Assembly: GCA_001972305.1 (NCBI GenBank)
Contig: BDDD01001782.1
Span: 141,163-205,162 of the forward strand
Origin: Cephalotus follicularis
Taxonomy: Eukaryota; Streptophyta; Magnoliopsida; Oxalidales; Cephalotaceae
DNA length: 64,000 nucleotides
Direction: 5' to 3'
Notes under the pieces: generated by a model
What the model was told of the DNA's origin: nothing
The model's database searches: none
What the model saw: only the letters and a program-made list of their open reading frames with translations
Made by a program: the position numbers and the translations under genes
Shown: positions 27,991-60,966 of the stretch, piece by piece
Layout: every line of letters starts with the position of its first letter
Numbering within the stretch: the stretch's first letter is position 1

Positions 27991-28995
27991 TGTTGATACA
28001 GAAATCCTTCCCTCAACAGTATCCTACGTGGAGGACTTTTATTTGTTAAGAGAAACGCTAGCCAAAGGATGCCTGGAGGAAGAATGTGATCTCGGACACC
28101 TGCACAAGGTAACAGCAATGATGGAAGTCCAGGAGGTTGTTCTCCCGGGGACACTCCGACGCTCAAGTTAGTCAAGTGCAGATGAAATAAAGCTCTCTTG
28201 AATGTAAAAAATGGCTGATCCTTGTTCAGTATGTTGAACTTGTATTTATAGTGGTGTTAGGTAACTGATAGAGCATGAAATTCGGAGTTGATGGCTGTCC
28301 CCTAAGGAAATTCCGAGGATCTCGGGATTTCCCTTATCTCCACCTGATTTTTCTCTTCTTTCCTTTATCTCCTCCTTAATTGTCTCGTTTCCTTTGTTGT
28401 AGTTGATCAGGATTCTATCTTCTTGTTTAGATAAGTACAAATCCCAACTAATCTGCTGAAGCTGATCCCCTTATCCCGTAGATAAGGTTGAGGTCCTCTG
28501 CTTGTAAGGCTGTTGAAGGTACTGATTGTAACACTGCAGCTGAGGTCATGGTCTTCATTAGTCCGAGGACGAAGGTTGTTTGGATTCGTCCGAGGAGGAG
28601 CTTGAAAGTTTCTGTGTAGTGAATGCCTCCTGTTCCATGTCTGGTAGGTCCTCTAGGCCGAGGTAGTCCTCGGCCCTTACACCTTGGATGTAGTCTTCTT
28701 CTTCCACGGATATGCTCTTGGAATGGATGACCTGTTGTGTGGCCGAGGGTGTCCTCGGCTGGGTTGCTTCAAATGGTGTCCTCGGACCTGGATCCGAGAA
28801 GAATAATGTTTGTACTGGCATCGCTGGGTGTGTCCTCGGCACTTATGCCGAGGAAAAGTCCTCCTTATGTCACTGTTTTGTTGGTGAACAGGCTTCCTCT
28901 GCCTTTAATTTATCAATCCTTGTCACTTGAACATCTGGCAGCTCTCGGATGAGGACACGTGTTGCTTTTGATTTAACATAATTTTTCCCACATCA
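27991..28995 (-). repeat. 3' LTR of element A (1005 bp)
   Basis: On the element strand the LTR starts TGATGTGGG and ends ATCAACA. A TATA box (TATAAATA on the minus strand) is at 28250-28243. The upstream (U3) part, 28560-28860, is dense in CCGAGGA/TCCTCGG motifs. It matches the other LTR except for 11 transitions. Confidence 0.95.
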
Positions 28996-29011
28996 TATGC
29001 CCCCCTGGTCC
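28996..29011 (-). other. Polypurine tract of element A
   Basis: On the element strand the sequence just before the 3' LTR is GGACCAGGGGGGCATA, the plus-strand priming site. The core ACCAGGGGGGCATA is shared with element B at 57630-57643. Confidence 0.85.
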
Positions 29012-29399
29012 TTGTTCTCTGACCTTGGTCAGAGGAGAAGGAGCAGAGTTGAGAGCCGTGGCCCAAGCAATACACCTTTGCAAAGCTTGCTATTAATCCT
29101 CTTCTTATGTACCAGCCGAGAACAAAGACTTGTATTATTTTTTGAAGAATGTAGGAATGTTGAACGTGTCTTGGTAGAGGATCAAAACTGCCCCCTTGTC
29201 TTCTCACGTCCCATCCGTTGGTCCTCGTGCTATGAACCCACATCATTGCACTTAAATAACGTATTAAGCACACTTAACACATGGCATGAGCAGAGCGTTT
29301 CCCGCCTCTGCCGCTTCGTTTCCCGCGCTTGGAATGTCGGTTGGGTTCTCAGCCATTGGATCTCTTGCTAAGTGGAGGGCCAGGATCAGATCCAGGGTC

Positions 29400-29416
29400 T
29401 ATAAAAGAAACCCTAA
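29400..29416 (+). promoter_or_regulatory. TATA box and telo-box of the antisense gene in element A
   Basis: TATAAAAG begins at 29400 and AAACCCTAA follows at 29408-29416. The TATA box is exactly 235 nt before the antisense ATG at 29635. Element B has TATAA at the same 235-nt distance from its own antisense ATG and also has AAACCCTA downstream of it, so this looks like a conserved promoter independent of the LTRs. Confidence 0.65.
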
Positions 29417-29634
29417 ATCACTAAGTCACTCTTTTACACTTTCTTGCTTTCTTGCAAATACCTGTGAGTTTGAGATTTACAAATTCTCTCGTGCCTTCAA
29501 CCTCAAATCTTCGTCTTCAATCCAACTTCACCCCAAGTTTCTGAGTAAGTTTGCAGTCCTTTCACTGTTCTTGAACTGATTCTCGCCTTTCCTTTTCGCT
29601 TTCTTCTTCGTCTCTCTTGTTCATTTTGACCTAG

Positions 29635-32006
29635 ATGGCTAGAACAAAACGTACCGCTAGGGTTTCTCCTCCCTTGGAGGTTGTACCCTTGGCTATGGTA
29701 ATCCCCCCTACTGAGAGTCCTTCTGCTGAGAGTCCCCTTCCATCTGAGGGTAGCTTGGGGGCTGCTGTGGGCGAACCTGTTGTACCCGATACTGAGGCTG
29801 ACTCCTCTGCCCCTGATGGCTTTGGTGTCAGCGCTCTCTCTCAGCAGGACGTGGTTGAACTAACCACCAAGTTCAATTTCCCCTCTGGGTTGAGATTCTA
29901 CCTCCCCAAGGATCCTCGGACTGTCACTAAGAGTAAAAAGGGCCTTTTCGTTGTCTTCGAGGGGGCTCTTACTCATGGTCTGAGGATCCCTGCTCCTAAC
30001 TTTGCCTTGTCGATTTTGGAGACATTCAAAGTCCACCCTTCTCTTCTACAACCCCAGTCATGGAGTTTCATAATAGGATTACTAGTTAGATGACTTGAGT
30101 CCGAGGTGACTGCCACAGTGGGATTGTTCCAACAATTTCACGTCATCTCGTCCTCGCCAGGGAAGCGTGGCTACTTCTTTAAGTCACGTCCTGGCATTGC
30201 CAAAATCCTCACCAAACCAACCCAATCCATTAAGCACTGGAGGACGAAATATTTCCTCATCAAAAACTTCGAGGGGTTCATCTCCCCCGTGTGGTGTAAT
30301 TCCTTGGACACCACACGTCTTAATAAGAGGCCCAATTTGACCGCGACCGAGGACCTGGACCTCCATAAACTCATCCACCTGGAGCCCGAGGAGGTGAACT
30401 CCGTGATAGCCGAGGAGCGTCTGGTCCGGGCTGGACTAAGTGTGGCTCCGAGACAAGGGTCACACTCGGCCGTGGTCGAGGAAGCCTCAGGGGACGAAGG
30501 GTCCCCTGCCCAATCCATGCCCCAAGAGATGGGGGAAAACTGTATAAAGCTTTCGTCTCCTCCGTCCTTTTCTGTCTTCATATTTCTTCTAACTTGTTTG
30601 ATTTTAAGTTACTGACATTATTGATCTCTGCTTGCACAGCCATGTCTTCTCGGCGCGGGTTCAATACTTTGTTCTCTGCATGCAAGGGCTCTAAGTCCTC
30701 CTCTGACGGTGCAGCAGAAAAACAAAAGGCTGCCGAGGCAGATGCCAGACTGAAGGCTGCCGTGGAGGCAGCTAAGAAAAAGGCTGCAGAGGGGGCCAAG
30801 CAAAGGGCCAAGGATGCCTTGGTTGGGGCCAAGCAGCTGAAGAAGGCAGGAGTTACTGCCAAGGGTAAAGGGGCCAAACGCCCCGCCAGTGATCAATCCT
30901 CTGACAAACTTCCAAATAAAAGGGGGAGACTCATCACTGGGTCCGAGATGGACTCCATCCTTGGACGAACTGAAGACGTCCCCATCATCCTGCCCCCCTC
31001 TCGGGACGTGGAGAGGATGATCAAGGAGCTAGAGGGAGTTGGGATGGGCTCCTCTAGCCTAAATACTCAAGGGTTGCCTTTTGCCCTTAGCTCGCTCTGT
31101 ATCTTCCCTGACGAGCTGAAGCAAAAGGAGGAGTGGTCCAGCAAGGACCTTGTCCACAACTGCCTTCGAAGCCAATTTGAGGTAAACGAACATCCTCTAA
31201 CCATGTGTTTCATACTTGCACTTTTTCTCTTCTAACTTTCTTTTTCTCTGCAGGCTTTGAATAACAACCACCTCTTGGTTGAGAATTACTCAATCATTTT
31301 GGAGAGGAACGACAAGCTGAGGTTGGAGGTGATGGAGGAGAAGGAGACTTCTCGGATTGCCAAGTCTCAGTTGGAGGAGGTCCTCAAGGCTCAAGAGGCT
31401 ACTGTTGAGGAGAGGAACAGGGCCGTTCTGGAGAAGGACCAAGCCCAAAAAGAGCTTGCTAAAGCTCAATATCTGTTCAAGTCCCTGCAGAAGCAAAATG
31501 AGGAGACCTTGAGGAAGTACGAGGAGGCCATGAAGAGGCGTGAGGAGGAAAAGGCTAAGGCTGTGAAGGATGCCCTTGATGAGTTTAGGTCCTCGGATGA
31601 ATTCCTTAGCTTGATGGAAGCCTCTGTAGAGGACTTCAAGGCTTCTGATGCCTTCGGCGAGGAGATCGTCAAGGAATCTGCTGAGAACTATCGCCGAGGG
31701 TTCTACACTTGCAAGAATTGGGTCCAGGCTTTGCACCCAGAGGTTCCTCTGGACGAGGTCGCCTTTTGCTCGACTGCCCAGGCCTTCGATTTTTATCCAG
31801 ACAGATACGAGGCTGAGGAAGAGAGAGCCGAGGAGGCCTTGGCAAGGAACACTGGGCAAGAAGTTGGTGAAGTGGATCCAGAGGCTGAGCTTGGGCCCAA
31901 GGATCCTGCCTCAGAGACTACTACTCCTCTTCCTCCTCAAACTGGGCCTTTTGTGCCTCCTCCTCCTGAGGATGACAGCTCCGCCGATCCTCCTGCCCTA
32001 GTTTAG
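29635..32006 (+). pseudogene. Antisense gene of element A: gypsy-type transposon domain plus coiled coil, one nonsense mutation
   Basis: This gene runs opposite to gag-pol between pol and the 3' LTR. Exon 1 starts at 29635 (MARTKRTARVSPPLE) and holds a ~200-residue domain including LFVVFEGALTHGLRIPAP and LLQPQSWSFIIGLLV, which resembles the 'putative gypsy-type transposon' domain of plant repeats. A TGA at 30091-30093 interrupts it where element B has a Cys codon. Exon 2 starts near 30640 (MSSRRGFNTLFSACKG), is Lys/Ala-rich with nuclear-localisation-like basic patches and ends at 31181. A clear GT-AG intron (31182-31253) joins QFE to ALNNNHLLVENY. Exon 3 (31254-32006) is a long coiled coil, then FRSSDEFLSLMEASVEDFKA and a Pro-rich tail. 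The donor of intron 1 is not resolved. The function is unknown. Confidence 0.75.
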
Positions 32007-33423
32007 CTTTATCTTTTCTTTCTTGTAATGATCTTTTTTTTCTTTTCTGTACTTGTAATCTTTGATACATGAATGGAAAGAAGTTTTTGTATCCTATGCT
32101 GTCTTTACTTTTTTGCACTGTGGACTTGTGGTATTTGCACTTAGCATGTATGTTTATAATCCCCTTAGGGATTTTGCCACTTGGGGCCTCTGACTTCTCG
32201 TAGAAGCAGACACTCCTCCAAAATAACTTAAAAACCACTTGAGAAATATTAACAGCGAACCCCTTGTAATCTCTTCCAAGCATTAATAAAAGAACTTCCT
32301 TTCTATGGTCTTGACTTAAACTTTTCTTGCTGTGATTAACCTCTGCATACTTGCTTTAATAATAATTCCCTTAGGAATTGTCTTCAAAATGACTTCGGTC
32401 TTCTCGAGCAAATGGGCATTTGACTCCCAAAAAACTTAAGTGACTTAGCAAAATATAAATGAAAGAGGCTTCGCCTTCTCGGATTTTGTCTTTCTTTTGA
32501 TTGCTGGTATACTAGAACTTTGAGAATACATATACGCTGATAATTCCCTTAGGAATTTTTAACTTAGCTCAAATCACTAACCTTTCGTGGGCGAGGTCAC
32601 TCAAGCTTGATGGTCCTCGTAGGACCTTTCTCTTTTGAGAATGCTTCAGTTCGATAGTAACCGAGTCTTCAAAATCTTGATACTCATAGTTTGAGTTCTT
32701 GGTCTGCTCGGACAAGTTCTCACGGGTTTGCCGAGGAGAATATCGTCTGACCTAAGTTTTTAGGACAGGTCGGCTGAGCTTTCAGTCCACTTGGAGACAC
32801 TTGTATTAAAGTGCTCAGTCCGACGAACTTGATCGTTGCGAGTTCCCATGGATTCGCCTTTCAAGTCACGATTTTAAGTCTGGTTGGACAAGTTCCCATG
32901 GTGTTGTCAACCAGTTCTTGCTCCCTTGGGAGTCTTTAGGCATGCTCCTCAGAAGGAGGTTTTTGTGTGCTCCTCGGAAGGAGGCTTTTGCGTGCTCCTC
33001 GGAATGAGGCTTTTGCGGGCTCCTCGGAAGGAGGCTTTTGCGGGCTCCTCGGAAGGAGGCTTTTGCGGGCTCCTCGGAAGGAGGCTTTTGTGGGCTCCTC
33101 GGAAGGAGGCTTTTGTATGTGCATTCTTGGATGCTCTTGAACGCCTGTTTGGCTGGTCTGCGTGAGACCTCGGCATGTGTTAGTTTCCTTTTTTGAGAAT
33201 TAGCCTCCGTAAGGCTTAGGAAACCTCGGATCTTGGTGCCCCCTTGAGGACATGGTCCGAGATGATCTATGTAGAACTGAGGGGACTGATCGGTGGCTGT
33301 TCAAAGGTTTGAGGACTTGAACATTGGACCTTCGGTCCCTTGCAAACTTGGAACTATAATGTGGAACACAGATCTTGGACAAATCTTGAAAAAAATTCAA
33401 ACTTTATTGAAAATATCTTACAT
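32007..33423. other. Spacer between antisense gene and pol in element A
   Basis: Non-coding spacer between two convergent genes; both 3' ends lie here. It contains repeated short motifs such as TCCCTTAGGAATT (near 32368 and 32545) and the 25-bp tandem array at 32944-33119. Sequence near 33290-33370 is shared with the post-pol regions of elements B and C. Confidence 0.75.
32944..33119. repeat. 25-bp tandem array downstream of pol in element A
   Basis: The unit is GAAGGAGGCTTTTGCGGGCT plus CCTCG. Six full units begin at 32952, 32977, 33002, 33027, 33052 and 33077, with partial units at both ends. Because 25 is not a multiple of 3, the array cycles through all frames and is not coding. Related units occur in elements B and C at the same relative place. 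Confidence 0.95.
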
Positions 33424-36400
33424 TCATTGATAGTACTTCCTCAGATGCTCGGCATTCCAAGCTCTGGCAATCTCCCTACCCCCCAAAGTTTCAAGTTTGA
33501 ATGTTCCTAGGCGGAGGACCCTTTTGATCTTGTATGGGCCTTCCCAGGCAGGGGCTAACTTTCCTCTGGTACCAGTAGGATCTGCAACTGCTGAGTTACG
33601 TAGGACTAGATCTCCTTGCCTTAGTGGTCTTGGGCTTACTCTCTTGTTGTAGTAACGACTTACCCTCTCTTGGTAGGCTACAACTCTAATCACGGCTTTA
33701 TCTCTGAGCTCTTCCACTAGGTCGAGGATGCTTCTCAGCCCTTCTTCATTGTTGTCTTCAGTGAAGTGCACAACTCTTGGTGATTGTACTCCAACCTCCA
33801 CTGGTATCACGGCCTCTGTCCCAAAACATAGACTGTATGGGGATTCTCCTGTTGTGGTCCGAGGAGTGGTTCTGTATGCCCATAATACGCTTGGTAACTC
33901 CTCGGTCCACCTTCCTTTGCTGTCTTCTAGCCGCTTTTTCAAGCCCGAGATGATCTCTCTGTTGATCACCTCGGCTTGACCATTACTTTGGGGATAGGCT
34001 ACTGAGGCTAGCCTATGTTCTATCCTCCATTCTCTGCAAAAGTCCCTGAAAGCTTGGCAATCGAATTGTTTACCATTATCCGTGATGATGGTCCTCGGAA
34101 CTCCAAATCTGCAAATTATTGACTTCCACACGAAGCTCTCTGTGTTCTTCTCTGTAATGGTGGCCAAAGGTTCTGCTTCCACCCACTTGGTGAAGTAATC
34201 AACTGCTACAATGAGAAACTTTCTCTGACCTGTTGCCATTGGTAATGGTCCGACGAAGTCCATTCCCCACTGTGCGAAGGGCCACGAGGCCGTAATTGAT
34301 GTCAGAGGTTGAGAAGGCCTTCTACTAATGTTGGCGTTCCTCTGACACTTGTCACACTTCCTCACCAAGTTTATTGCATCTTGATGCATAGTCGGCCTAG
34401 CTCTGTAAACAAGCTTCCTCGCCTCCACAGGGTCCTCGGGCAAGATCCCGTCCCTTAGCCAAATAACAAAGGGAGTCATCCAATTTGGCTCCTGTGGTTC
34501 ATCTATGTCCATTACCTCTGCTTGAGAGATTGTTGGTCGCTCCAAGTAGTCGACTAGCACTGTTTGATTTTTCTCCAACTCCTCTGCCGTTGCTAGCTTC
34601 GAGAGTTGGTCTGCTCTGACATTCTCTGCTCTGGGCACCTTCACAATTCTTAATACTTCAAAGGCTGACTTCATGCCCTGAAAATGGGTTAAGTACTTCA
34701 TCATAAGGTCTTCTCTGGCCTCATACTCCCCATTTGCCAAGCCAACCACCAGCTGAGAATCACTTGAGGCTTCTATCCTCTGCACCTCTAGATGCTTTGC
34801 AATTGTTAGTCCCGCTATCAAAGCTTCCCACTCAGCTTCATTATTTGTGGTTTTGAATTTGAATCTCAAAGCATACTCCAATGTCCACCCATCTGGACTT
34901 GTTAATACTAATCCTGCTCCACTGCCAGTAAGGCATGAGGATCCATCCACTGATAACTTCCATATTCCCTTCTCGCTCTCTGAAGGGTTCTCCTCCATAC
35001 ACACCGTAGGTGTATTATCTCCAACAAAGTCGGCCAGTACCTGAGATTTGATTGCTGGTCTGGCTTCGAACTTCACATCATACTCGCCTAGTTCGACTGA
35101 CCACTTAATGAGCCTACCTGAGGTGTCAGGTTTGGCAAGAACTTGTTTGAGTGGTTTGTCAGTCAGAACCTTGATTGTATGGGCTTGAAAATATGGCCTC
35201 AATTTTCTGGCCGAGATGATCAAAGCATAGGCGAATTTCTCCACCTCTGGGTACCTCCCTTCAGCATCGTTCAAGGCCTTGCTTACATAGTACACAGGCC
35301 TTTGAACTTTATCCTCTTCTCGGACTAGCACTGCACTCACTGCGTCCGAGGTGGCCGCAAGGTACAAATACAAGTCTTCTCCATCCTTAGGCTTTGAGAT
35401 CAAGGGAGGAGAAGCCAAATACTCCTTCAACTTGTCGAAGGCTGCTTGACATTCGTCAGACCACGAGAATCCCTTGGGATCTCGAAGTATCTTGAAGAAA
35501 GGAAGGCACTTCTCTGCCGACTTGGACACAAACCTACTCAAGGCTGCAATCTTCCCATTCAATCTCTGCACATCCCTGATGGTTTGCGGTGGCCTCATGC
35601 CTTGAATTGCCGAGATCTTCTCTGGGTTGGCCTCTATTCCTCTGCTAGAGACCATGAATCCGAGGAACTTGCCTGAGGTGACCCCAAATGTACACTTGGA
35701 CGGATTGAGCTTCATATTGTACTTCCTCAACACTTCAAATGTCTCCTCCAAGTCTTTCACATGAGGGCTCTTGGCTGGAGTCTTGACGAGCATGTCGTCT
35801 ATGTACACTTCCATGTTCTTCCCAATCTGAGGTTCAAAGATCTTGTTGACTAGACGCTGATAGGTGGCCCCTGCATTCTTCAAGCCGAAGGGCATAACTT
35901 TGTAACAGTACATTCCTCGGTCAGTTATAAAAGCTGTCTTATCCTCGTCTGGCTTGTACATTAGGATTTGATTATACCCCGAATAAGCATCCAAGAAGCT
36001 TAGTAGTCTATAGCCCGAGGTTGCATCCACCAGCTGATCTATCTTCGGGAGAGGGAAGTTGTCTTTTGGGCACGCCTTGTTGAGGTCTGTGAAGTCTATG
36101 CACATCCTCCACTTGCCATTAGCTTTTTTGACTAACACAGGATTTGCTAGCCAGTCCGAGTAATGCACTTCTCGGATAAAACCTGCCTGTAACAACTTGC
36201 TCACCTCCTCAGCTATTGCTTGTTGCCTCTCAGGGGCGAAGTTCCTCTTCTTCTGCCTGATCGGTGGTCTGGCTGGATCCACACTTAGCTTGTGAACCAT
36301 CACATCTGGACTGATGCCAGGGACCTCCTCTGCCGACCATGCAAACACATCCTTATTATCACGGAGGAATGTTATTAACTCCTCCTTCTCCGCCTCTCCA

Positions 36401-38904
36401 AGTTGTGAGCCAACTTGAAGCACTTTCTCATCATTTCCCTCTTCTATGGGCACTTGGAGAACATCTTCTACCGGCTGTGGACGCTCAGGTTCCATGTCTC
36501 CTCTGAGCTCCACGTTTGCTATGGAAAGGACCTTACCCTTCCCCTTGTCCGAGATGACAGTTTTATAACATCTCCTCGCCACCTTTTGATCTCCTCTGAC
36601 TTCCCCTACGCCAAACCTTGTGGGGAACTTCACTAGTAAGTGTCTCGTAGACACTATGGCCTCCAACAAATTCAATCCTGGTCGCCCCATTATAGCGTTG
36701 TAAGGGCTTGGGGTGTCCACCACAAGGAACGTCATCTCCACCTGAGTCTGACGTGGGGCCGTGCCTGCAACCACTGACAGGTTGATAGATCCCAGAGGGT
36801 GGATCGTCTCACCTGCAAATCCAACCAGTGGGGTTTTAACTGGCTTCAGCTGGTCGGCCGGGATCCTTAACTGATCAAATGCATGCTTATACAGGAAGTC
36901 GGCCGAGCTGCCATTATCAATGAGAATCCTCTTCATGGTAAAGAGCTCTACCAGAAGGGTAACCACCACTGGATCATCGTGAGGAAGACGTACTCCCTCA
37001 TAGTCCGCCTCCGAGAAGGATATTACCTCCTCATCTCCTCCAATTCTGAGCCTTTTGCTGTGAGGAACTTGTTGCACAGCAAGGGACTGTCTCCCATAGG
37101 CCTTTCTTGCATTCGAGTCGTCGCCCCCAGACGCGACCCCCCCAGAGATAGTGTGGATAACACCTCTGGGTTGTTGCTGTTGCTGTTGCTCCTCCTGCTG
37201 CTGAGGAGCCTCTTCTCTTCTCTGCTCTCTCCTTCCCTGTGGAGCATCTCTGTCAACATACTTGCGCAAGTGTCCCTTCCTAATCAGATCCTCAATCTGA
37301 TTTTTTAACTGCCTGCACTCCTCAGTATCGTGGCCATGGTCACGATGATATCGGCAGTACTTCTCCACACTTCTGTTCTCTGCCGGAGCCCTCATCTTCT
37401 CGGGCCATTGAAAAGGGACCTTATCTTGCTCCACAGCAAGTATCTTAGTACGTGTGTCCAGGAGAGGGGCAAAAGTATTATAAGATGGTATTGGCGCTCC
37501 CCCCCTAGATGTACCCTCTCGCCTTGACAGCTTATGTCTGAGGTCTCCCTTGGACAGGTCTGACCTCTCCTTCCTCTTCTCTCTTCTCTCGGGAGCATTT
37601 CGTGAAGGCTCCCTTCTCTCCTCCTGTTGGCCAGTCCAAGGTGCTTTTTGCTTCCTGGCCAACATCTCTTCCTCTGCGTTCACATATCTTTCTGCCCTTT
37701 TCAGCAAGTCTGCCATTTCCTTGGCTGGTTTCTTCAGTAGAGAGAAGGTAAACCTTGAGTTGCTCCTCAACCCATTGTTCAAAGATGCCAGAGCAAAGGA
37801 CGGCTCCAGGTCCTTCACTGTAAGAGATTCTTTGTTGAACCTAGTGATGTAATCTCTTAACGTCTCATCTTTGCCTTGCACCACATTGATGAGGTGTGTG
37901 GAGTTTCTCCTCTGCGTGGTGCGATTGAGGAACTTCGTCACAAACAGCTCCGTAAACTGATCGAAGCTCTTCACTGAATTCTTGGCCAAGGTGAAATACC
38001 ATGATTGGGCAGCTCCAGTTAAAGTCACGGGGAATCCTCGGCAAAGCATTGCGTCCGAGGCCTGATGCATCCACATTGCCTGGATATAAGTACGCACGTG
38101 CTGGATGGGGTCCGTAGACCCATCGTACTTGTCAAGACTTGGGTTTCGAAACCCACTGGGGACCGACTCTGCTACAATCTCGGCCGTGAAGGGGTGTGCA
38201 TTGATATTTTGCACCTCGGATAGGTGCCCCCTTGGATGTTCCACTCCTCGGAACCTCCTTTCCAAGTCTGCAAGCCTCCTGTTCACTGCTTGCTCTACCT
38301 CTTCAATGTTCCTTACTCTGCTGGAGACATGTGACCCTCCAGCTAATGAGGCTGGGGGATTGACCCTGCTTCCTCGGGCAGTGCCAGCTCTGCGTGGAGC
38401 ATTAGAACGTACTTGTGCCTCCTCTGCTCCCCTGTCCTGCTGCCGAGGATCCACATCCATGGGCTGGTGCTGAGGGTGTCCTCTCCTGGGATCGTTGGGG
38501 TGATCCCTTGCAGTCGAGGACTCATCTCTCTGAGATGCATTGATCTCAGGCCTCCTTCCCAGGGGATTGTTGTCCCCTGACCGCCTATGGAGAGGTTCGT
38601 TTCTCCCTGACGGGTTTCGCCTGGCACCTCGTGGGTGCCTTGTCTCCACCTCTGGCCTATGGGGGCCAGAAACTCCTCGGGCCACTTGCTGAGCGGGCCC
38701 TGCCTGCTGTTGTTGGTTGGCTAGAGTTGTGACCAACCGATCAGTAACACGCTCCAATCCCTGGAGGAATTGGTTGAGTTGCTCCCCTGTGACGGGAGCT
38801 GGTTCTTGTGCCACCACTTGGGCGACTTCTTCTGGAGGAGCTATGATCTCCTGGCGTTGTTGGCTGCCAGTGGCTCCAACTAGGGTATTCTTCCTGGGAG
38901 GCAT
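33424..38904 (-). CDS. Gag-Pol polyprotein of Ty3/Tat element A
   Basis: A single open frame of 1826 aa starts 45 nt after the 5' LTR. Rough residue positions: capsid ~270-430 (GAAQSWYFTL, TLRDYITRFN); His/Cys knuckle ~516 (CRYHRDHGHDTEEC); protease ~662 (ILIDNGSSADFLY); reverse transcriptase ~930-1110 (VYIDDMLVKT near 1034); a first RNase H ~1183-1310 in which the usual catalytic Asp context is replaced (YLAATSDAVSAVL), so it is probably a non-catalytic tether; a second, archaeal-type RNase H from ~1320 (SVDGSS, NNEAEWEALIAG, SSDSQLV); and integrase from ~1520 (KCDKCQRN, MDFVGPLP, ITDNGKQF, GQAEVINREI). The Tat lineage is recognised by the two RNase H domains. The N-terminal His pair of the integrase zinc finger is missing: VYRARPTMHQD joins sequence that in element B is separated by the HEEVCGNH block. 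Confidence 0.93.
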   Translation of the reverse strand: MPPRKNTLVGATGSQQRQEIIAPPEEVAQVVAQEPAPVTGEQLNQFLQGLERVTDRLVTTLANQQQQAGPAQQVARGVSGPHRPEVETRHPRGARRNPSGRNEPLHRRSGDNNPLGRRPEINASQRDESSTARDHPNDPRRGHPQHQPMDVDPRQQDRGAEEAQVRSNAPRRAGTARGSRVNPPASLAGGSHVSSRVRNIEEVEQAVNRRLADLERRFRGVEHPRGHLSEVQNINAHPFTAEIVAESVPSGFRNPSLDKYDGSTDPIQHVRTYIQAMWMHQASDAMLCRGFPVTLTGAAQSWYFTLAKNSVKSFDQFTELFVTKFLNRTTQRRNSTHLINVVQGKDETLRDYITRFNKESLTVKDLEPSFALASLNNGLRSNSRFTFSLLKKPAKEMADLLKRAERYVNAEEEMLARKQKAPWTGQQEERREPSRNAPERREKRKERSDLSKGDLRHKLSRREGTSRGGAPIPSYNTFAPLLDTRTKILAVEQDKVPFQWPEKMRAPAENRSVEKYCRYHRDHGHDTEECRQLKNQIEDLIRKGHLRKYVDRDAPQGRREQRREEAPQQQEEQQQQQQPRGVIHTISGGVASGGDDSNARKAYGRQSLAVQQVPHSKRLRIGGDEEVISFSEADYEGVRLPHDDPVVVTLLVELFTMKRILIDNGSSADFLYKHAFDQLRIPADQLKPVKTPLVGFAGETIHPLGSINLSVVAGTAPRQTQVEMTFLVVDTPSPYNAIMGRPGLNLLEAIVSTRHLLVKFPTRFGVGEVRGDQKVARRCYKTVISDKGKGKVLSIANVELRGDMEPERPQPVEDVLQVPIEEGNDEKVLQVGSQLGEAEKEELITFLRDNKDVFAWSAEEVPGISPDVMVHKLSVDPARPPIRQKKRNFAPERQQAIAEEVSKLLQAGFIREVHYSDWLANPVLVKKANGKWRMCIDFTDLNKACPKDNFPLPKIDQLVDATSGYRLLSFLDAYSGYNQILMYKPDEDKTAFITDRGMYCYKVMPFGLKNAGATYQRLVNKIFEPQIGKNMEVYIDDMLVKTPAKSPHVKDLEETFEVLRKYNMKLNPSKCTFGVTSGKFLGFMVSSRGIEANPEKISAIQGMRPPQTIRDVQRLNGKIAALSRFVSKSAEKCLPFFKILRDPKGFSWSDECQAAFDKLKEYLASPPLISKPKDGEDLYLYLAATSDAVSAVLVREEDKVQRPVYYVSKALNDAEGRYPEVEKFAYALIISARKLRPYFQAHTIKVLTDKPLKQVLAKPDTSGRLIKWSVELGEYDVKFEARPAIKSQVLADFVGDNTPTVCMEENPSESEKGIWKLSVDGSSCLTGSGAGLVLTSPDGWTLEYALRFKFKTTNNEAEWEALIAGLTIAKHLEVQRIEASSDSQLVVGLANGEYEAREDLMMKYLTHFQGMKSAFEVLRIVKVPRAENVRADQLSKLATAEELEKNQTVLVDYLERPTISQAEVMDIDEPQEPNWMTPFVIWLRDGILPEDPVEARKLVYRARPTMHQDAINLVRKCDKCQRNANISRRPSQPLTSITASWPFAQWGMDFVGPLPMATGQRKFLIVAVDYFTKWVEAEPLATITEKNTESFVWKSIICRFGVPRTIITDNGKQFDCQAFRDFCREWRIEHRLASVAYPQSNGQAEVINREIISGLKKRLEDSKGRWTEELPSVLWAYRTTPRTTTGESPYSLCFGTEAVIPVEVGVQSPRVVHFTEDNNEEGLRSILDLVEELRDKAVIRVVAYQERVSRYYNKRVSPRPLRQGDLVLRNSAVADPTGTRGKLAPAWEGPYKIKRVLRLGTFKLETLGGREIARAWNAEHLRKYYQ

Positions 38905-38930
38905 GGTTGTTAATGGCTTCCTGTTGCGTA

Positions 38931-38947
38931 TCCCACAGACGGCGCCA
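38931..38947 (-). other. Primer-binding site of element A
   Basis: On the element strand TGGCGCCGTCTGTGGGA follows the 5' LTR after a 2-nt GT spacer. The first nine bases (TGGCGCCGT) fit the 3' end of plant tRNA-Asp as I recall it; the following bases fit poorly. Element C has the same site. Confidence 0.75.
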
Positions 38948-38949
38948 AC

Positions 38950-39954
38950 TGTTGATACAGAAATCCTTCCCTCAACAGTATCCTACGTGAAGGACTTTTA
39001 TTTGTTAAGAGAAACGCTAGCCAAAGGATGTCTGGAGGAAGAATGTGATCTCGGACACCTGCACAAGGTAACAGCAATGATGGAAGTCCAGGAGGTTGTT
39101 CTCTCGGGGACACTCCGACGCTCAAGTTAGTCAAGTGCAGATGAAATAAAGCTCTCTTGAATGTAAAAAATGGCTGACCCTTGTTCAGTATGTTGAACTT
39201 GTATTTATAGTGGTGTTAGGTAACTGATAGAGCATGAAATCCGGAGTTGATGGCTGTCCCCTAAGGAAATTCCGAGGATCTCGGGATTTCCCTTATCTCC
39301 ACCTGATTTTTCTCTTCTTTCCTTTATCTCCTCCTTAATTGTCTCGTTTCCTTTGTTGTAGTTGATCAGGATTCTATCTTCTTGTTTAGATAAGTACAAA
39401 TCCCAACTAATCTGCTGAAGCTGATCCCCTTATCCCGTAGATAAGGTTGAGGTCCTCTGCTTGTAAGGCTGTTGAAGGTACTGATTGTAACACTGCAGCT
39501 GAGGTCATGGTCTTCATTAGTCCGAGGACGAAGGTTGTTTGGATTCGTCCGAGGAGGAGCTTGAAAGTTTCTGTGTAGTGAATGCCTCCTGTTCTATGTC
39601 TGGTAGGTCCTCTAGGCCGAGGTAGTCCTCGGCCCTTACACCTTGGATGTAGTCTTCTTCTTCCACGGATATGCTCTTGGAATGGATGACCTGTTGTGTG
39701 GCCGAGGGTGTCCTCGGCTGGGTTGCTTCAAATGGTGTCCTCGGACCTGGATCCGAGGAGAATAATGTTTGTACTGGCATCGCTGGGTATGTCCTCGGCA
39801 CTTATGCCGAGGAAAAGTCCTCCTTATGTCACTGTTTTGTTGGTGAACAGGCTTCCTCTGCCTTTAATTTATCAATCCTTGTCACTTGGACATCTGGCAG
39901 CTCTCGGACGAAGACACGTGTTGCTTTTGATTTAACATAATTTTTCCCACATCA
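38950..39954 (-). repeat. 5' LTR of element A (1005 bp)
   Basis: On the element strand it starts TGATGTGGG and ends ATCAACA. The TATA box (TATAAATA) is at 39209-39202 on the minus strand. It would drive the gag-pol transcript leftward. Confidence 0.95.
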
Positions 39955-46005: not shown

Positions 46006-46625
46006 ATGACTCCCCTAGAGGTCAATTATGCTCTAAGGGAAGTCCATGAAGAAGTCTGTGGTAATCACACTGGGAGCAGAACCTTGTCCAACAAATTATT
46101 GAGGCAGGGCTATTTCTGGCCGATTATGCACCAAGATGCCATAGACTTAGTGAGGAGGTGTGATAAGTGTCAAAGAAACGCTAACATTAGCAGAAGACCT
46201 TCACAACCTCTGATGTCTATCACGGCCTCTTGGCCCTTTGCACAGTGGGGGATGGATTTCGTTGGACCACTTCCAGTAGCAACGGGCAGAGGAAGTACTT
46301 GATTGTTGCAGTGGATTACTTCACCAAATGGGTAGAAGCCGAGCCCCTGGCTACAATCACGGAGAAGAACATGGATAGCTTCGTTTGGAAATCAATTATC
46401 TGTAGATTTGGAGTCCCGAGAGTGATAGTCTCAGATAATGGGAAGCAGCTTGATTGCCAAGCTTTCCGTGATTTTTGTAAAGAATAGAGAATAGAGCATA
46501 GGCTGGCCTCGGTAGCCTACCCTCAGAGTAATGGTCAAGCCGAGGTGATCAACAGAGAAATCATCTCGGGCATGAAGAAGCGCTTTGATGATAGCAATGG
46601 AAGATGGACAGAAGAGCTACCAAGT
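46006..46625 (+). pseudogene. Integrase fragment of element B, upstream of the nested insertion
   Basis: It reads MTPLEVNYALREVHEEVCGN, then the second half of the zinc finger RRCDKCQRNANISRRPSQPL, then GMDFVGPLP, a frameshift near 46285, VDYFTKWVEAEPLATITEKN and SDNGKQLDCQAF. A TAG at 46486-46488 replaces the conserved Trp of the REWRIEHR block. It keeps the His-His part of the zinc finger that element A has lost. It stops at RWTEELPS, where element D inserted. Confidence 0.88.
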
Positions 46626-47632
46626 TGTTAGCACCTTGAGCTTGTGCGAGACCCTGCTAACATGGGTTTGGTGTCCTGCACCTATGTTAGGCCGAAACGG
46701 CAGCGTGGGGAGTCAAGTTGCATGGAAGCAGAAACATTTGGGGCACTTCAGTACAGTTTGCTTAGGCATGGCGCGGCAGGCGCGCGCCATGTGCATCAGA
46801 CAGGGCATTGTGCGGGCATGGCGCACAGGCGCACATTGTGCGGGAGTAGGCGCACAACAGGTAGTACGGGCGAGCATGGCACAGATTGTGGCGCACAAAT
46901 AGGCATTTGGAAATGCGAAGCATGTGGGAGCAGTGCGCATCATGCAGGGAGCTAGCCGAGAGATGCGCGCACATCATTTGGGCGTGGTGCGCATCTGGTG
47001 GGAGCTTGGCGCGCAAGCAGCGCATCATGCAGACAAGACAGACGCATCATGGGCTCATCATGCAGGCGTGGGGCGCATTTGGAGGAGACTGGCGCGCAAG
47101 CAATGCGCATCGTGCGGCAGGTTGCGCACAAGGCTCGGACTGGCAGGCAGAACATGCGGCATGAAGGCAAAACGTGGGGGAGTGGCTCCTACAAACTCGG
47201 AAGTGCTTGCTGGCTGCTGGCAGTTGTGTTTTAGTGTGTTGTACGGCCTGAGAATGCCATCTGTACAGTAGAAATTGTAGGAGCAATTGTAAGGCACTTA
47301 GTGTGCCATGTGTCCTAGCAGTTAAGCGTTGTTAACTGCACATAGTGTAGGGGTGTGCACTATAAATAAACATTGGCAGCAGCTGTGCCAAGGCTATGTG
47401 AGAATTCTCAAAGCTAGAGAGTGAGCTTGTATACCCTTTGTACTTTCAGCAAAGTCAATAAAGGTTGGAAGTGCTTTTCCGTAAACTTGTGTGCAAGTGT
47501 TTCTAAGCTAAACAGTGAGTGTGTGCAATTAGCCTCCTTCCTACTTGGGGCGTTGCAAAGAGCGGTTGAGACTAAGTAGGAACTTAGTGCCATCACGGCG
47601 AAAAATTGGTGTCCAAAATTAGACCCGTGACA
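46626..47632 (+). repeat. 5' LTR of element D (1007 bp)
   Basis: It starts TGTTAGCACC and ends CCCGTGACA. The first half is unusually GC-rich, with recurring GCGCACAACAGG and GCGCATCATGCAGG motifs. A TATA-like CTATAAATAA lies near 47360. Confidence 0.95.
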
Positions 47633-47634
47633 AT

Positions 47635-47644
47635 TGGTATCAGA
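47635..47644 (+). other. Primer-binding site of element D
   Basis: TGGTATCAGA, two bases after the LTR, matches the complement of the 3' end of initiator tRNA-Met, the usual primer of plant chromoviruses. Confidence 0.85.
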
Positions 47645-47657
47645 CACAGGTTGGTGC

Positions 47658-48843
47658 ATGACCCGATCGGAGGAAATGGATGATATCCGAGAAAGACTAC
47701 GAAGATTGGAGCTGCTGGTGGGTGAACCACAAGTGGAGGACGCAGCAGACAATCTTACTACCCGTTTGGAAGACCTGGTTGTTGGCGTAACAGTCATCCA
47801 AAATTCACACAATGATTTATTGGGCAGGACGGAGGAAAGGTTCAAGCAGGTTGTGCTTGACATGATCTCATTTACGGATGAGTTGAGGAAGAGTGTGGAA
47901 CTAAACCAGGAGGACATTTCACTACTGAAAAAGGCCCTCCATGGCGGTCCTTCGAGAGCGGAGGGTGCTTCAAACTAGTTCAGGGTTCCTGAACCTAAAC
48001 AATTCAGCGGAAGGCGTGATGCCAAAGAGTTGGAGAACTTCTTGTGGGATATGGAGTCATATTTCCAGGCCATACGAGTACCCGAGGAGGAAAAGGTTTC
48101 CATAACCAGCATATATCTAGCTGGGGATGCGAAATTATGGTGGCGTACAATGGGTACAAGATGATGCTAGTTCCAGAAGACCAAGAATCGAGACTTGGCC
48201 AGTCTTCGTTAAAGAATTGAAGGATCAATTCCTTCCAAACAACACATCATGGTTGGCGCGGGAATCACTCAAAAAGCTCAAACAGACGGGTTCGGTTAGA
48301 GATTACGTAAAGGAGTTCAGTTCTCTATTGCTGGATATAAAAGATATGTCCGAAGCAGACAAGCTTTTCAATTTCCTGTCCGGTATGCAACCTTGGGCGC
48401 AAACGGAGTTGCGCAGGCAGAATGTTCAAGACCTACCCTTGGAAATGTCGGCAGCCGATGCCTTAGTCGATTTCAGGATGATGAAGTCAAGTGATGGGCC
48501 TTCTAGTAGTGGCAAGGCCAAACCAAAGGAGAAGGGCAAGCAAAATAAGGACAAAGGCGCTGGGAAGAAAAGCAATGATCCTTCAGGCAAGGGTAAGGCA
48601 AAAGCATCAGAGGATTGGAAAGAGAAGAAAGCTAATAGTGGATGCTTCATTTGCGAAGGTCCACATCGTGCCAGGGACTGCCCCAGGCGAGGAGCACTGA
48701 ATGCGATGATAGCTCAGGGTGAAAATGGAGGCAATGCATATTCGGAGGCCCCTACCAGAGTTGCCCCATTGCAGCTGATCAATGCACTTAGAGCAGTGCC
48801 ACCATCAGGTCTGCTTTATGTTAACACGAGTGTTCAAGGGTAG
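47658..48843 (+). pseudogene. gag remnant of element D
   Basis: It starts MTRSEEMDDIRERLRRLELL, has the capsid blocks FSGRRDAKELENFLWDME and ELKDQFLPNN and ends in a CCHC zinc knuckle (CFICEGPHRARDC). An in-frame TAG lies at 47978-47980, a frameshift follows near 48150, and another stop (48841-48843) separates it from protease. It encodes the structural protein of the particle, now broken. Confidence 0.85.
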
Positions 48844-48849
48844 CAAGTT

Positions 48850-50740: not shown

Positions 50741-50772
50741 CCGATGCATACTGTGTTAAAATGGCATAGCAG

Positions 50773-52214: not shown

Positions 52215-53219
52215 GCTTGTGCGAGACCCGACTAACATGGGTTTGGTGTCCTACACCTATGTTAGGCCGAAACGGCAGCGTGGGGAGTCATGTTGCATGG
52301 AAGCGGGAACATTTGGGGCACTTCAGTACAGTTGGCTTAGGCATGGTGCGGCAGGCACGCGCCATGTGCATCAGGCAGGGCATTATGCGGGCATGGCGCA
52401 CAACAGGTGCACTTTGTGCGGGAGTAGGCGCACAACAGGCAGTACGGGCGAGCATGGCACAGATTGTGGCGCACAAATAGGCATTTGGGCACAAAATGTG
52501 CAGCATGCAGGAGCAGTGGGCATCATGCAGGGAGCTGGCCGAGAGATGCGCCCGCATCATGTGGGTGTGGCGCGCATCTGGTGGGAGCTTGGCGTGCAAG
52601 CAGCGCATCATGCAGACAAGACAGGCGTATCATGGGTGCATCATGCAGGCGTGGGGCGCATTTAGCGGAGGCTGGCACACAAGCAATGCGCATTGTGCGG
52701 CAGGTTGCGCACAAGGCTTGGACTGGCAGGCAGAACATGCTGCATGAAGGCAAAACGTGGGGGAGTGACTCCTACAAACTCGGAAGTGCTTGCTGGCTGC
52801 TGGCAGTTGTGTTTTAGTGTGTTGTAAGGCCTGAGAATGCCATCTGTACAGTAGAAATTGTAGGAGCAATTGTAAAGCACTTAGTGTGCCATGTGTCCTA
52901 GAAGTTAAAGATTGTTAACTGCACATAGTGTAGGGGTGTACACTATAAATAGACCTTGGCAGCAGCTGTGCCAAGGCTATGTGAGAATTCTCAAAGCTAG
53001 AGAGTGAGCTTGTATACCCTTTGTACTTTCGGCAAAGTCAATAAAGGTTGGAAGTGTTTTTCCGTAAACTTGTGTGCAAGTGTTTCTAAGCTAAACAGTG
53101 AGTGTGTGTGTGCAATTAGCCTCCTTCCTACTTGGGGCGTTACAAAGAGTGGCTAAGACTAAGTGGGAACTTAGTGCCATCACGGTGAAAAATTGGTGTC
53201 CAAAATTAGACCCGTGACA
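52201..53219 (+). repeat. 3' LTR of element D (1019 bp)
   Basis: It starts TGTTAGCACC directly after the G-rich polypurine tract GGGTGGGGGAGG and ends CCCGTGACA. It overlaps the last bases of the chromodomain frame. By eye it differs from the 5' LTR at about 14 positions plus a 3-bp indel in the first ~250 bp. Confidence 0.95.
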
Positions 53220-53681
53220 CAAGTGTACTATGGGCTTATAGAACCACTTCTCGGACCACAACTGGTGAGTCCCATACAACCTTTATTTTGGAGCTGAAGC
53301 TATGATACCGGTGGAGATTGGTGTACAGTCACCAAGAGTTGTGCATTTCAGTGAAGAAAATAATGAAGATGGGATGAGAAGCCTCCTCGACTTAGTGGAA
53401 GAGCTCAGAGATAAGGCCGCCATCAAAGTTGCAACTTACCAACACAGGGTGAGCCGTTACTACAATAAAAGGGTAAATCTCTGACCACTAAGGGAATGAG
53501 ACCTAGTCCCAACTCAGCTATTACGAATCCAACCGGTACCAGAGGAAAGTTAGCCCCTAATTGGGAAGGACCATACAAAGTGAAGAGAGTGCTCTGCCCA
53601 GGAACATTCAAACTCGAAACTCTGGGGGGCAGGGAGATTCCTAGGGCTTGGAATGCCGTGCACTTGAGGAAATACTACTAG
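53220..53681 (+). pseudogene. Integrase C-terminal fragment of element B, downstream of the nested insertion
   Basis: It continues the integrase of B after the CAAGT duplication: WAYRTT, then a frameshift near 53280, PVEIGVQSPRVVHFSEENNE, ELRDKAAIKVATYQHRVSRY, another disruption near 53480, and NWEGPYKVKRVLCPGTFKLE to the stop at 53679-53681. Alignment with element A is colinear. Confidence 0.88.
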
Positions 53682-54728: not shown

Positions 54729-57138
54729 CTAAAGCTCTGGAGGTGGAGCTTCTTGATCACCCTCGGGCAGGGGGGCACTGAAGGGCTCGGTGGAAGGAGG
54801 TTTAGGGGTTGCAAGCTCTGAAGGAGGAGCCTCAAGCTCTGAACCGACCAGGACAGGATCCGAGGGCAAAATAACAAAATCTGGTGACACGGACCCGGCA
54901 GCCTCATCTTCCTGAGCATAGGGAGTTTCCTTATCCAAAGCGAGCTTTGCCACCTTCTCCTCATCCACGACTCCATCAAAATAGAAGTCGAATGCACTAA
55001 CAGTTGGGCAACATACGATGCCAGTGAGAGGAACCTCTGGGTGCAGAGAAGAAACCCAGTTTCGACAAGCATAGAACCCCCGATGAAAGTACTTGGCCGA
55101 TTCCTCAAACACAGCACCACCAAAAGCTGGCGAGGCTTTGAAATCCTCCACGGAGGCTTCCATAAGTGTTTGGAACTCATCAGAGGACTTGAATGCTGTC
55201 AAGGCCTTGTCAACTTCCTTCTCTATCAGAGATTCATCTTTCCTCCGGTAGCTATCGAACCTTGCTTCCAGAGCGTGGTACCCCTCTTTCACGCTCGCGA
55301 GCTCCTGGTCCAGTGCCTTCATTTCAGCCCTCTTCTCCTCCAAGTCCTCAATGGCCTACCGCTTCTCCTCAACAAGTGACTCCTGAGTCCTCAAGACTTC
55401 ATCCAGCTGAGCTTTGGCCGAGCGAGCAGTCTCTTCAAGCTCCGAGTTCTCTGCCCTCAGTTGTTCGTTCCTCTCAAGGATGGCCGAGAAGTTCTCAACC
55501 AGTAGTTGAGTATTATTCAGGGCCTGTCAAAGAAAAATAGATGTCAGAAGAGAAAGCAAAAACTGGACTCAAAAAAAGGTAGATGCCATAAATTACTCAC
55601 CGATATGTTTCTCCGAAGGCTTTGATTTACCAACTCTTCGTTGGTCCAGTTCTTCCTCGCCTCCATCTCGGTGGGAAAGAAAACCAGCTGGCTAACTGCG
55701 TAAGGGATCCCTGGAGCGCTCAGGCTTAGCCTTGAACCGTCAAAGGCCTCCAACTCCTCGAGCAAGCTCTCAGTCTTTCGAAGGGTAGGTAGTTGAATAG
55801 GATCACAAGAACCCGTTCCGAGGGTAGTTAGATCCACGTCCCCTTTCCCCTTTTTGCTCTTCTTGCTCAGAGGGATAGGAAGAGCCCTATGGGGAGTGCT
55901 CGGCAGCAGGCCGTTTATTTTTGTGAGCCCTCGGCTTTGTGGTAGCAGCAGTGACAGGTCCCTCTTTGGACCCTGTAGCTTTTCCCTTCTCCTTTAGGCC
56001 CTTCTCGGACTCAGGAGCTTTCTCCTTTTGCTTCGATCCCTCGGGAGCAGCCAGCTGCTGTCTCCTCTTGGTAACCTTCAAGATGTCAGTCATATTGCGC
56101 CGAGAAGCCATGACTGCAAGAAGTCATAAAGATCAAAATCAAAAGCACGGCAAAGAACTGAAAAAGAACGAATGGAATATAAAAGTTTAAACTGGAGGAG
56201 ACGAAATCTTTAAACAGTTTTCTTCCTTGACTGGGCCGAGCCTCAGGGTCATTGCTGACAATTTCATCTTTCTCTTTCTTTACCCCAACTAGGATCTCTT
56301 CGTCCTCGTCCAGACATAACCGATGTCCCAAGGACATGCTTAGTCCAACCCGACAGAGGCGGTCATCCCAGATAGTGTCATTCACCCCCTCGGATTCCAA
56401 AGCGGAGAGCCTTGCCAGGTCAGCTTCGACCATTGACAGTACAGACCTCTTGTTGAGCTTTGGGACATCTAAGGAGTCCGGCCACCGGCAAGGGATGAAG
56501 TTAGGGAGGTTCTTGATAAGAAAGTACATTTCTCTCCGCCCCTTGACAGACTTGGTAGGGTCCACTAGAAGCTTCTTGGGTGCTCCAGGACGGGACTTGA
56601 AATAGTACCCGTGCTTGCTGGGAGAGGGTGCTAGAAGGTGGAACTCTTTAAAGAGTCCGACATTGGCATCTACCTCGAACTCCAAGCACTTTACCAAAAA
56701 CCAGATAATAAAGGCCCAGGACTGAGGCTGGAACAATGCTGGGTGGATCTTGAAATGCTCCAGGATCTCGAGAGCAAAAGGTGGAGGCAAAAACCTCAAG
56801 CCGTGCTCCAGGGCGTCAGAGAACACTAGAAAAAGTCCAGGTCTGCTCTCGGTTACTTCTTGGGGATAGTTCGCAAGATCGCATATCAGGGCTCTCGGGA
56901 GGACGAATTTGCGAGCCAATTCCTTCACCTTTTCTTCATCAAATTTGCTTTTTTCAAAATTGACCCTAAATACTTGGGTCCCCGCTCCGGTGGAGGAAAT
57001 CCCAGGAGCCCCCGCAGCACTAGCTTCCATTTCCACTTCAGCATTTAAAGGGCGCTCGGCTCTGGCCACGCCTCCAGCCAGGCGGTTCACCACGTCCGGT
57101 CTGATAACATGTTCAGAAGTTTGGTTGGTTCTTGCCAT
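54729..57138 (-). pseudogene. Antisense gene of element B: gypsy-type transposon domain plus coiled coil, broken
   Basis: It runs on the minus strand, opposite to B's integrase, and is colinear with the antisense gene of element A. Exon 1 (57138 to about 56190) begins MARTNQTSEHVIRPDVVNRL and carries the same domain (LFLVFSDALEHGLRFLPPPF, LFQPQSWAFIIWFLVKCLEF, GYYFKSRPGAPKKLL). Exon 2 begins MASRRNMTDILKVTKRRQQL (56111), is Lys-rich, has a frameshift near 55890 and continues DLTTLGTGSCDPIQL to RRNIS (about 55603). Exon 3 begins ALNNTQLLVENFSAILE (near 55525), forms the coiled coil, has a TAG at 55358-55356 and keeps the conserved block FKSSDEFQTLMEASVEDFKA. Clear protein-level similarity to A despite divergence suggests past selection on the protein. 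The function is unknown. Confidence 0.72.
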
Positions 57139-57643: not shown

Positions 57644-58154
57644 TGATATGGAAAAAATATTCCTTAAATGGTATTTTCACGTGTCCTTGGGAGAACAAGC
57701 CAGGTGTTGTCCAGAGCTAAGGACACGTGGCCGATCGCTCTAAATTTGGAAGGATAATGTCAAACAACAGAACGATGCCAAATCAGGTGGAGAATTAGGG
57801 AAATGGCCCGAGATCCTCGGCATTTCCTTAGGGGAACACAAATCATTTCCGAGAATCATGCTAGGCAGTTACAATCGGTCTACTATAAATACCAGAATCA
57901 AAGATATATCTCAGGTCCGCCACTTTCACACTTGAAAGCACCCTGTGATTCTTTTCTCTGCGTTGTCTGACTTAAGTATCGGAGTGTCCCCAGAAGTAAA
58001 CTCTCCTGGACCTACGATCAGTTTGCTAATATGTGCAGGGAATACGGTCACACCACCACTCAAACTACCTTCTCGGAGCATTCACCGGGTTTCTTTCAAC
58101 AAATCAAACCCTTCCACATAAAGGACTGTTGAGGAAATGATTTTTGCATCAATA
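57644..58154 (+). repeat. 3' LTR of element B (511 bp)
   Basis: It starts TGATATGGA and ends GCATCAATA (a changed CAACA end). A TATA box TATAAATA is at 57884-57891. It resembles the LTR of element C more than the 1005-bp LTR of element A, and is about half of A's length. No 5' partner is present. Confidence 0.88.
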
Positions 58155-60964: not shown

Positions 60965-60966
60965 GT

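Follow-up and report, generated by a model that had tools for sequence, protein, structure and literature searches.

An intron-containing antisense gene with a histone H3-like start in a Retand-like retrotransposon of Cephalotus follicularis

How can a gene with introns persist inside an element that copies itself through RNA, and what might its product do? The question is raised by a window of 64,000 nucleotides (nt) of Cephalotus follicularis contig BDDD01001782.1, analysed on its plus strand together with copies drawn from the same 1.58-Gb genome. The window holds element A (27991-39954), a Retand-like long terminal repeat (LTR) retrotransposon with gag-pol on the minus strand. A gene of three coding exons (2202 nt) occupies the opposite, plus strand between pol and the 3' LTR; its predicted protein begins much like histone H3. 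Because the gene is antisense to the genomic RNA, its introns are unseen by splicing of that RNA and pass through retrotransposition. A first-pass annotation of the window had advanced this logic, which fits, and had placed such a gene before the 3' LTR of both element A and a second element, B. That description is confirmed here and extended to a third family. The annotation had overlooked two further features, namely the H3-like N-terminus and a conserved stretch at the donor of intron 1.

The antisense gene and its conservation

Conservation was judged in 35 copies of family A. Forty of 4719 candidates were scored; the window copy and 34 full-length or near-full-length others were kept and 5 partial ones were dropped, so that the sample is selected for similarity to A. 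The gene consists of the following features.

29400..29407, plus strand: TATA box of the antisense gene, TATAAAAG in 34/35 copies, outside the LTR
29544..29550, plus strand: leader splice-donor-like site, GT in 35/35 and GTAAG in 34/35 copies
29635..30541, plus strand: coding exon 1 (N-terminus, Transposase_28 domain), with TGA at 30091-30093 in the window copy
29638..29661, plus strand: codons 2-9, ARTKRTAR, equal to histone H3 residues 1-8 at 7 of 8 positions
30542..30639, plus strand: intron 1, phase 1, GT in 35/35 and AG in 33/35 copies
30542..30564, plus strand: first 23 nt of intron 1, conserved between A and B
30640..31181, plus strand: coding exon 2 (basic linker), its ATG at 30642-30644 kept in 35/35 copies
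31182..31253, plus strand: intron 2, phase 0, GT and AG each in 35/35 copies
31254..32006, plus strand: coding exon 3 (coiled-coil-like region, conserved C-terminal block, stop)
31617..31643, plus strand: EASVEDFKA block

The start ATG and the stop TAG are each kept in 34/35 copies, and the exons are frame-consistent across the conserved GT-AG introns in 25/35 A copies and in 5/8 copies of family B. Judged from these signals, the gene is in all likelihood spliced as modelled. The promoter of its own that had been claimed corresponds to a promoter-like region with a conserved TATA box (34/35 A, 8/8 B). The claimed gypsy-type transposon domain is Transposase_28 (PF04195; TRP28): the piece of A before its stop scores 23.9 bits, under the cut-off of 26.2, and B scores 27.7, over it, with the domain present in 10/10 exon-1 proteins scanned (9 stop-free A-family exons chosen from the 35 copies, plus B). 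Lysine and arginine make up 25% of the first 100 residues of exon 2 in A, against 9% for aspartate and glutamate. The heptad periodicity of exon 3 was matched in power by 95/2000 shuffles, a weak test, and when exons 1 and 3 were searched as profiles against solved structures, the best E values were 0.35 and 0.47. A and B have the same exon order; the window copies of both elements are decayed, a point that the annotation left unremarked, and that of A is broken by an in-frame TGA at codon 153.

Protein-level constraint on the spliced frame of family A is very likely real. Pairwise dN/dS, the ratio of nonsynonymous to synonymous change (Nei-Gojobori), is 0.194 for the whole frame and 0.197, 0.192 and 0.185 for exons 1, 2 and 3, and dN is below dS in 595/595 pairs, which are not independent of one another. 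The first-pass annotation had staked the gene on a dN/dS removed from 1 and on the presence of the frame throughout the family; the frame is indeed recognisable in 35/35 of the sampled copies, chosen as they were by similarity. A pair-free test agrees: parsimony-informative sites (variants in at least 2 copies) fall at codon positions 1/2/3 as 145/101/348 and singletons as 151/135/166, and a bias seen in informative sites but not in singletons fits constraint in active lineages followed by neutral decay after insertion. The other two frames of the antisense strand gave dN/dS of 1.2 and 1.8, and the sense-strand frames opposite the gene gave 1.07, 1.81 and 0.264. The last of these was considered as a possible constrained sense-strand gene and rejected; it shares its third positions with the antisense frame and carries 12-18 stops per copy, and is therefore read as a shadow. 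The median number of internal stops in the 35 copies is 0 for the spliced frame and 13-50 for the five others. Constraint is stronger on pol than on the antisense gene: the end of pol gives a dN/dS of 0.053 in the 22/35 copies, counting that of the window, that could be aligned there over 500 nt or more.

Insertions and deletions (indels) follow the same pattern. Counted per copy against A, multiples of three make up 65/77 in exons, 7/61 in introns and 18/99 in the leader. Distinct indels shared by at least 2 copies are multiples of three in 6/6 cases in exons and 4/17 in leader and introns (Fisher p 0.002). Over all distinct indels the figures are 13/25 and 9/31, a weaker periodicity attributed to private, presumably post-insertion, indels that dilute the signal. 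The whole spliced frame is open from start to stop in 13/35 copies, and the introns and 3' flank are free to vary.

The gene recurs in two other families. Its family B homologue in the window runs from 57138 to 54729 on the minus strand, with exon order as in A, frameshifts and stops.

56216..57138, minus strand: family B homologue of exon 1 (decayed)
55601..56113, minus strand: family B homologue of exon 2 (decayed)
54729..55523, minus strand: family B homologue of exon 3 (decayed)

The family B alignment comprises this copy and 7 loci taken from 42 matches listed, two of the loci (L045 and L046) being near-duplicates. The family is older and more decayed than A, with 47% exon-1 protein identity to it. 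Its signals include TTTATAA, the leader donor GGTGAG and the GT of intron 1, each in 8/8 copies, and the AG acceptor of intron 2 in 7/8; the GT donor of intron 2 is missing in the two near-duplicates, and the phase pattern of A is found in 5/8 copies. With one near-duplicate dropped, codon-position counts in 7 copies show a clear bias in exon 3 (27/22/50) and a weak one in exon 1 (10/15/21). Exon 2 shows none (18/10/12; the reference copy has an indel there), which, like the weakness in exon 1, speaks against the case made from A. The third family is represented by locus L054 and in part by L053, L059 and L063. L054 keeps the exon order of A, with intron 1 in phase 1 (84 nt) and intron 2 in phase 0 (88 nt); its protein identity in exon 1 is 43% to A and 49% to B, and in exon 3 30% to A. 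As A, B and L054 agree in their introns and intron phases, the two introns stand at equivalent places in three families.

The most conserved part of the locus is not coding. Between A and B, the best-conserved 24 nt within 29235-32126 are 30539-30562 (0.93), a segment that includes the intron-1 donor; conservation averages 0.90 over the opening 23 nt of the intron, against 0.45 for its remainder and 0.43-0.55 for the exons. Within A copies, 2/23 sites of the stretch are informative versus 42/75 in the rest of the intron (Fisher p 7e-5). Such a scarcity of changes led to the rejection of a coding role, since codons would leave third positions free (A-B identity 0.40 elsewhere). A 25-nt motif drawn from this region has 918 matches in the genome and 0 in the control. 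It occurs with three changes in L052, a diverged relative of B, and has no match at up to 8 mismatches in the third family, which carries GTACTATG instead. The donor itself, ACT/GTATAA, looks weak by the general plant consensus and so would suit regulated splicing. Read on the gag-pol strand, the stretch of A is a run rich in purines (GGAGGAGACGAAAG) and contains the palindrome AAAGCTTT; in the window B copy the counterpart (56215-56193) has this palindrome disrupted. A role in the genomic RNA, for example in second-strand priming or dimerisation, is conceivable.

The H3-like N-terminus

The start of the family A protein, MARTKRTARVSPP, may be compared with that of histone H3, MARTKQTARKST. 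Among the 35 copies, Ala2 is kept in 34, Arg3 in 35, Thr4 in 33, Lys5 in 35 and Thr7 in 34, while codons 2, 4, 6 and 7 vary silently with their residues mostly kept. The Arg3 codon (29641-29643) is AGA or AGG in 35/35 copies and never CGN; its AG is possibly kept for splicing as well (ATGGCNAG/AAC). Related starts are MARTKQTS in L052 and MARTKQTRRP in the third-family locus L063. An ARTK-type N-terminal sequence, as expected of an H3-tail mimic, is thus found in A, in B and in a pattern that recurs across the genome.

That pattern, ATGGCNAGRACNAARCRNACN, encodes MARTK[Q/R/H]T, allowing Gln, Arg or His at codon 6 and Arg3 as AGR only. It has 1577+1530 = 3107 matches in the genome, compared with 0+2 for the reversed control and about one match by chance in a composition estimate at an assumed 36% GC. 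Histone genes cannot explain this number, since the genome has only 30 histone-fold matches. The 44 matches for which letters were obtained (the first in contig order) comprise 25 distinct 20-mers, with codon 6 as Gln in 40, Arg in 4 and His in 0, and make use of all four Ala codons and all four Thr codons at codon 4. Three of the first 100 places fall on known loci, these being an A start, a B start and a site 309 nt upstream of a PF04195 domain. Moreover, 12/27 matches of the intron-1 motif (contigs C1-C37) are preceded on their own strand by the start pattern, at a distance of 887-918 nt, and no other arrangement of the two occurs within 3 kb. Seven of the distances are 887-888 nt, compared with 903 in A, and suggest a further family with both start and motif. 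Most of the start-pattern matches probably belong to the antisense gene.

Several observations weigh against regarding this start as a histone mimic. The likeness is only 6-8 residues long, was spotted after the fact and comes from one genome. Family A has Arg at the position of Gln5 in H3; the starts of A, B, L053 and L063 have no K9; and ARTKQT is exact (MARTKQT) in only 3/8 B copies, the other 5 matching at 5/6 residues. In the third family, L053 begins MTRTKQTKR, L054 has MARTKR followed by a stop and L059 is without such a start. A phase-1 exon 1 follows from only 7/12 of the start-to-motif distances, and the other five do not fit. An exact start lies upstream of 1/8 listed PF04195 matches on contigs C1-C38, and the sequence inspected around four high-scoring PF04195 loci (C12, C2467, C3737 and C1792) showed no MARTK start, so that the start is not universal in TRP28 loci. 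A search of the 20-residue N-terminus against PDB sequences found nothing. Lastly, a basic N-terminus could serve as a nuclear localisation signal (NLS) or as a nucleic-acid contact.

What the protein may do

The proposed route from gene to function is as follows. A TATA-type promoter in the interval that separates the gene from the 3' LTR would drive transcription towards pol, and removal of the two conserved introns would give a protein of about 730-750 residues. Its predicted layout is an H3-tail-like N-terminus, TRP28, a basic linker that looks NLS-like by eye, a coiled-coil-like region and the conserved C-terminal block, and the protein would most likely be a nuclear one that works as a dimer or oligomer. 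Once the initiator Met is cleaved off, ARTKQT or ARTKRTAR would lie exposed and would imitate unmodified H3 around K4, and the exposed mimic may engage or titrate the readers, writers and erasers of host H3, leaving the element transcribable. In our judgement the odds are even that the locus serves a Retand-type element as a true accessory gene whose protein engages chromatin factors through such a mimic. A chromatin function by H3-tail mimicry, considered by itself, is a tentative suggestion from the sequence. Equally speculative is the fuller proposal that the spliced antisense product of Retand, with its exposed ARTKQT..., would hijack or block H3K4 readers and modifiers as an anti-silencing measure, and that regulated splicing through the intron-1 donor stretch and the leader donor may give two products, with and without the mimic and TRP28.

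Silencing control, particle assembly or trans-mobilisation, the roles suggested by the first-pass annotation, are conjecture. Other explanations start from the same data. It is possible, if doubtful, that the gene is real and constrained and that MARTK is simply a basic N-terminus for nuclear import or nucleic-acid binding, with TRP28 binding DNA or the nucleic acid of the element and the protein acting as a transcription regulator or in import of the pre-integration complex. The basic first 100 residues of exon 2 agree with this, as do the DNA binding predicted for TRP28 (PMC11963269) and the nuclear location of the Grande product GENE23 (PMC7264820). A need for basic residues would not, however, account for the order A-R-T-K-[Q/R]-T recurring across families while residues from position 8 diverge, nor for the prevalence of Gln at position 6 (40/44 of the pattern matches shown). 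It is very improbable that the antisense transcript outweighs the protein and tunes silencing as double-stranded RNA with the genomic RNA. This has been put forward for aORF-3R transcripts (PMC7264820), but protein-level selection on the spliced frame is unexpected if RNA alone mattered, and the introns and 3' flank vary freely. The least credible reading, that the exons are open by chance within a high-copy repeat, can draw on the broken state of the window's own copies; it is ruled out by the dN/dS, codon-position bias, indel periodicity and stop counts of the 35 copies, to which the splice signals may be added.

The number of products is a related matter, and two proteins from one unit are improbable. 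In that scheme an mRNA with an unspliced leader would start at the first ATG (ATG1), and joining of the leader donor to the acceptor of intron 1 would skip exon 1 and start translation at ATG2, two bases into exon 2, giving a basic, coiled-coil protein. The leader donor GT is present in 35/35 A and 8/8 B copies, with a donor-like site in L052, L053 and L054; ATG2 is kept in 35/35 A and 6/8 B copies and lies at the same place in L052 and L054; and the leader is free of ATG in 34/35 A and 6/8 B copies. An AG directly or shortly before ATG1 is found in only 25/35 A and 4/8 B copies and was not seen in L052-L054. A leader intron ending just before ATG1 thus lacks support as a general feature, and the poor conservation of its acceptor also counts against the gene model proposed above. 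Conversely, no stop belonging to exon 1 itself is conserved and its frame continues in phase into exon 2, so that the fused protein is the simpler product; ATG2 may simply encode an internal Met. A separate exon-1 protein was rejected for the same lack of a conserved stop: were intron 1 retained, the in-frame stop would lie at six different distances (at 51 nt in 20/35 copies).

Ever since Grande, the long 3' regions of Retand elements have been known to harbour antisense genes. The first-pass annotation was right that antisense open reading frames (ORFs) are known in Tat elements, but it missed that antisense TRP28 is already a hallmark of Retand (PMC11963269). Such ORFs are reported in 97% of recent Retand clusters, with DNA binding predicted (PMC11963269), and TRP28 in 23% of Retand elements (PMC6317226). 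In the same lineage, the antisense product GENE23 of Grande is nuclear and has its own promoter, and a review asks for antisense and spliced transcripts to be looked at (PMC7264820). The gene described here resembles the TRP28 elements of Retand (Grande gene23, RIRE2, Retand aORF-3R) in its slot between pol and the 3' LTR, its orientation and the tandem repeats by pol; it shares the TRP28 domain with Retand and a promoter of its own with Grande. It differs in that the published genes are treated as ORFs in the available text of these sources, whereas here there are two conserved introns, constraint on the spliced frame, an H3-like N-terminus and the intron-1 donor stretch. The word 'intron' does not occur in the available text of PMC11963269, and the introns in that of PMC6317226 are those of Ogre sense transcripts. 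No report of introns in antisense Retand genes was found in the available text of PMC11963269, PMC7264820 and PMC6317226; the original Grande and Retand papers lie outside this scope, which leaves priority uncertain. Relative to these surveys, the conserved introns, the intron-1 stretch and the H3-like N-terminus appear to be new, the antisense TRP28 ORFs themselves having been published. Because of the conserved introns, ORF-based surveys catch the gene in fragments, and spliced reads could mark its transcripts without ambiguity.

Partial parallels exist elsewhere. Human T-cell leukaemia virus type 1 encodes HBZ, a bZIP protein with a spliced form. HBZ is antisense and nuclear (PMC11963269) and is therefore alike as an antisense accessory gene of a retroelement with a nuclear protein; host and protein family differ. 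Within the Tat clade, Ogre has an intron on the sense strand (PMC6317226), whereas the introns described here are antisense. The histone mimic ARSK of influenza A NS1 copies the ARTK tail of H3 (PMC7600879); it is C-terminal, whereas the present likeness is N-terminal, longer (ARTKQT, ARTKRTAR) and in a plant retrotransposon. VANC21 of VANDAL21 is an element-encoded anti-silencing protein (PMC8616336) and would be a functional analogy only, VANDAL21 being a DNA transposon. A literature search for MARTKQT together with retrotransposons, judged by titles and the opening of abstracts, returned no transposable-element protein. If the H3-like N-terminus is functional, a widespread lineage of flowering-plant retrotransposons would encode a histone mimic, a route by which an element faces host silencing that would be comparable with influenza NS1 in animals.

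Element A, its relatives and neighbouring elements

The setting of the gene is given by the remaining features of element A.

27991..28995, minus strand: 3' LTR of element A, 98.9% identical over 1005 nt to 38950-39954 by self-comparison
38950..39954, minus strand: 5' LTR of element A, by self-comparison with the 3' LTR
33424..38982, minus strand: gag-pol ORF of element A, with gag, reverse transcriptase (RT), RNase H, second RVT_3 RNase H and integrase in order
32944..33115, no strand: tandem repeat, 25 nt x 6.9, between the end of the antisense gene and the end of pol

The LTR pair differs at 11 of 1005 positions. Domain matches in the gag-pol ORF include RT_RNaseH (1203-1301), RVT_3 (1352-1463) and rve (1568-1663). 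A second RNase H (aRH) between RNase H and integrase marks Ogre and Retand within Tat (PMC6317226), and in element A the second RNase H sits between these two domains. Retand elements range from 315 to 1194 bp in LTR, 7.4 to 12.9 kb in internal length and 2.9 to 6.6 kb from POL to the 3' LTR, and about half carry tandem repeats in that last region (PMC11963269). Calculated from its coordinates, element A falls inside these ranges (LTR 1005 bp, internal 9954 bp, POL-3'LTR 4428 bp), its tandem repeat adjoins pol, and its antisense TRP28 ORF lies between pol and the 3' LTR. On aRH, lengths, tandem repeat and antisense gene, element A fits Retand. Its flanks, ATAGT and ATAAC, did not confirm a target-site duplication (TSD).

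In the genome as a whole, PF04195 has at least 150 matches above cut-off among the matches listed, from 9886 first-look candidates. L055-L058 and L060-L062 cover four high-scoring PF04195 loci, apparently of different TRP28 families, with no visible MARTK start in the stretches fetched. A 1285-residue open frame in L053 (reverse strand, 1328-4187) is an artefact of a long run of N inside the third-family gene.

Element C (60827-63627) encodes gag and protease followed directly by the end of integrase, an internal deletion, and is a possible non-autonomous derivative; the antisense exons have no match in its 9.8-kb locus (L043). Element B carries its antisense gene in the slot between pol and the 3' LTR, as in A, and consists otherwise of the following parts.

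57780..58152, plus strand: 3' LTR segment of element B, recognised by its likeness to the LTR of A
46120..46625, plus strand: integrase piece of element B, left of a nested element
53222..53678, plus strand: integrase piece of element B, right of the nested element

As far as seen, element B is 5'-truncated, integrase being the sole match among six pieces of the polyprotein of A. The element nested in this integrase is a separate gypsy element (46625-53219) with LTRs 93% identical and flanks that suggest a 5-bp TSD, CAAGT.

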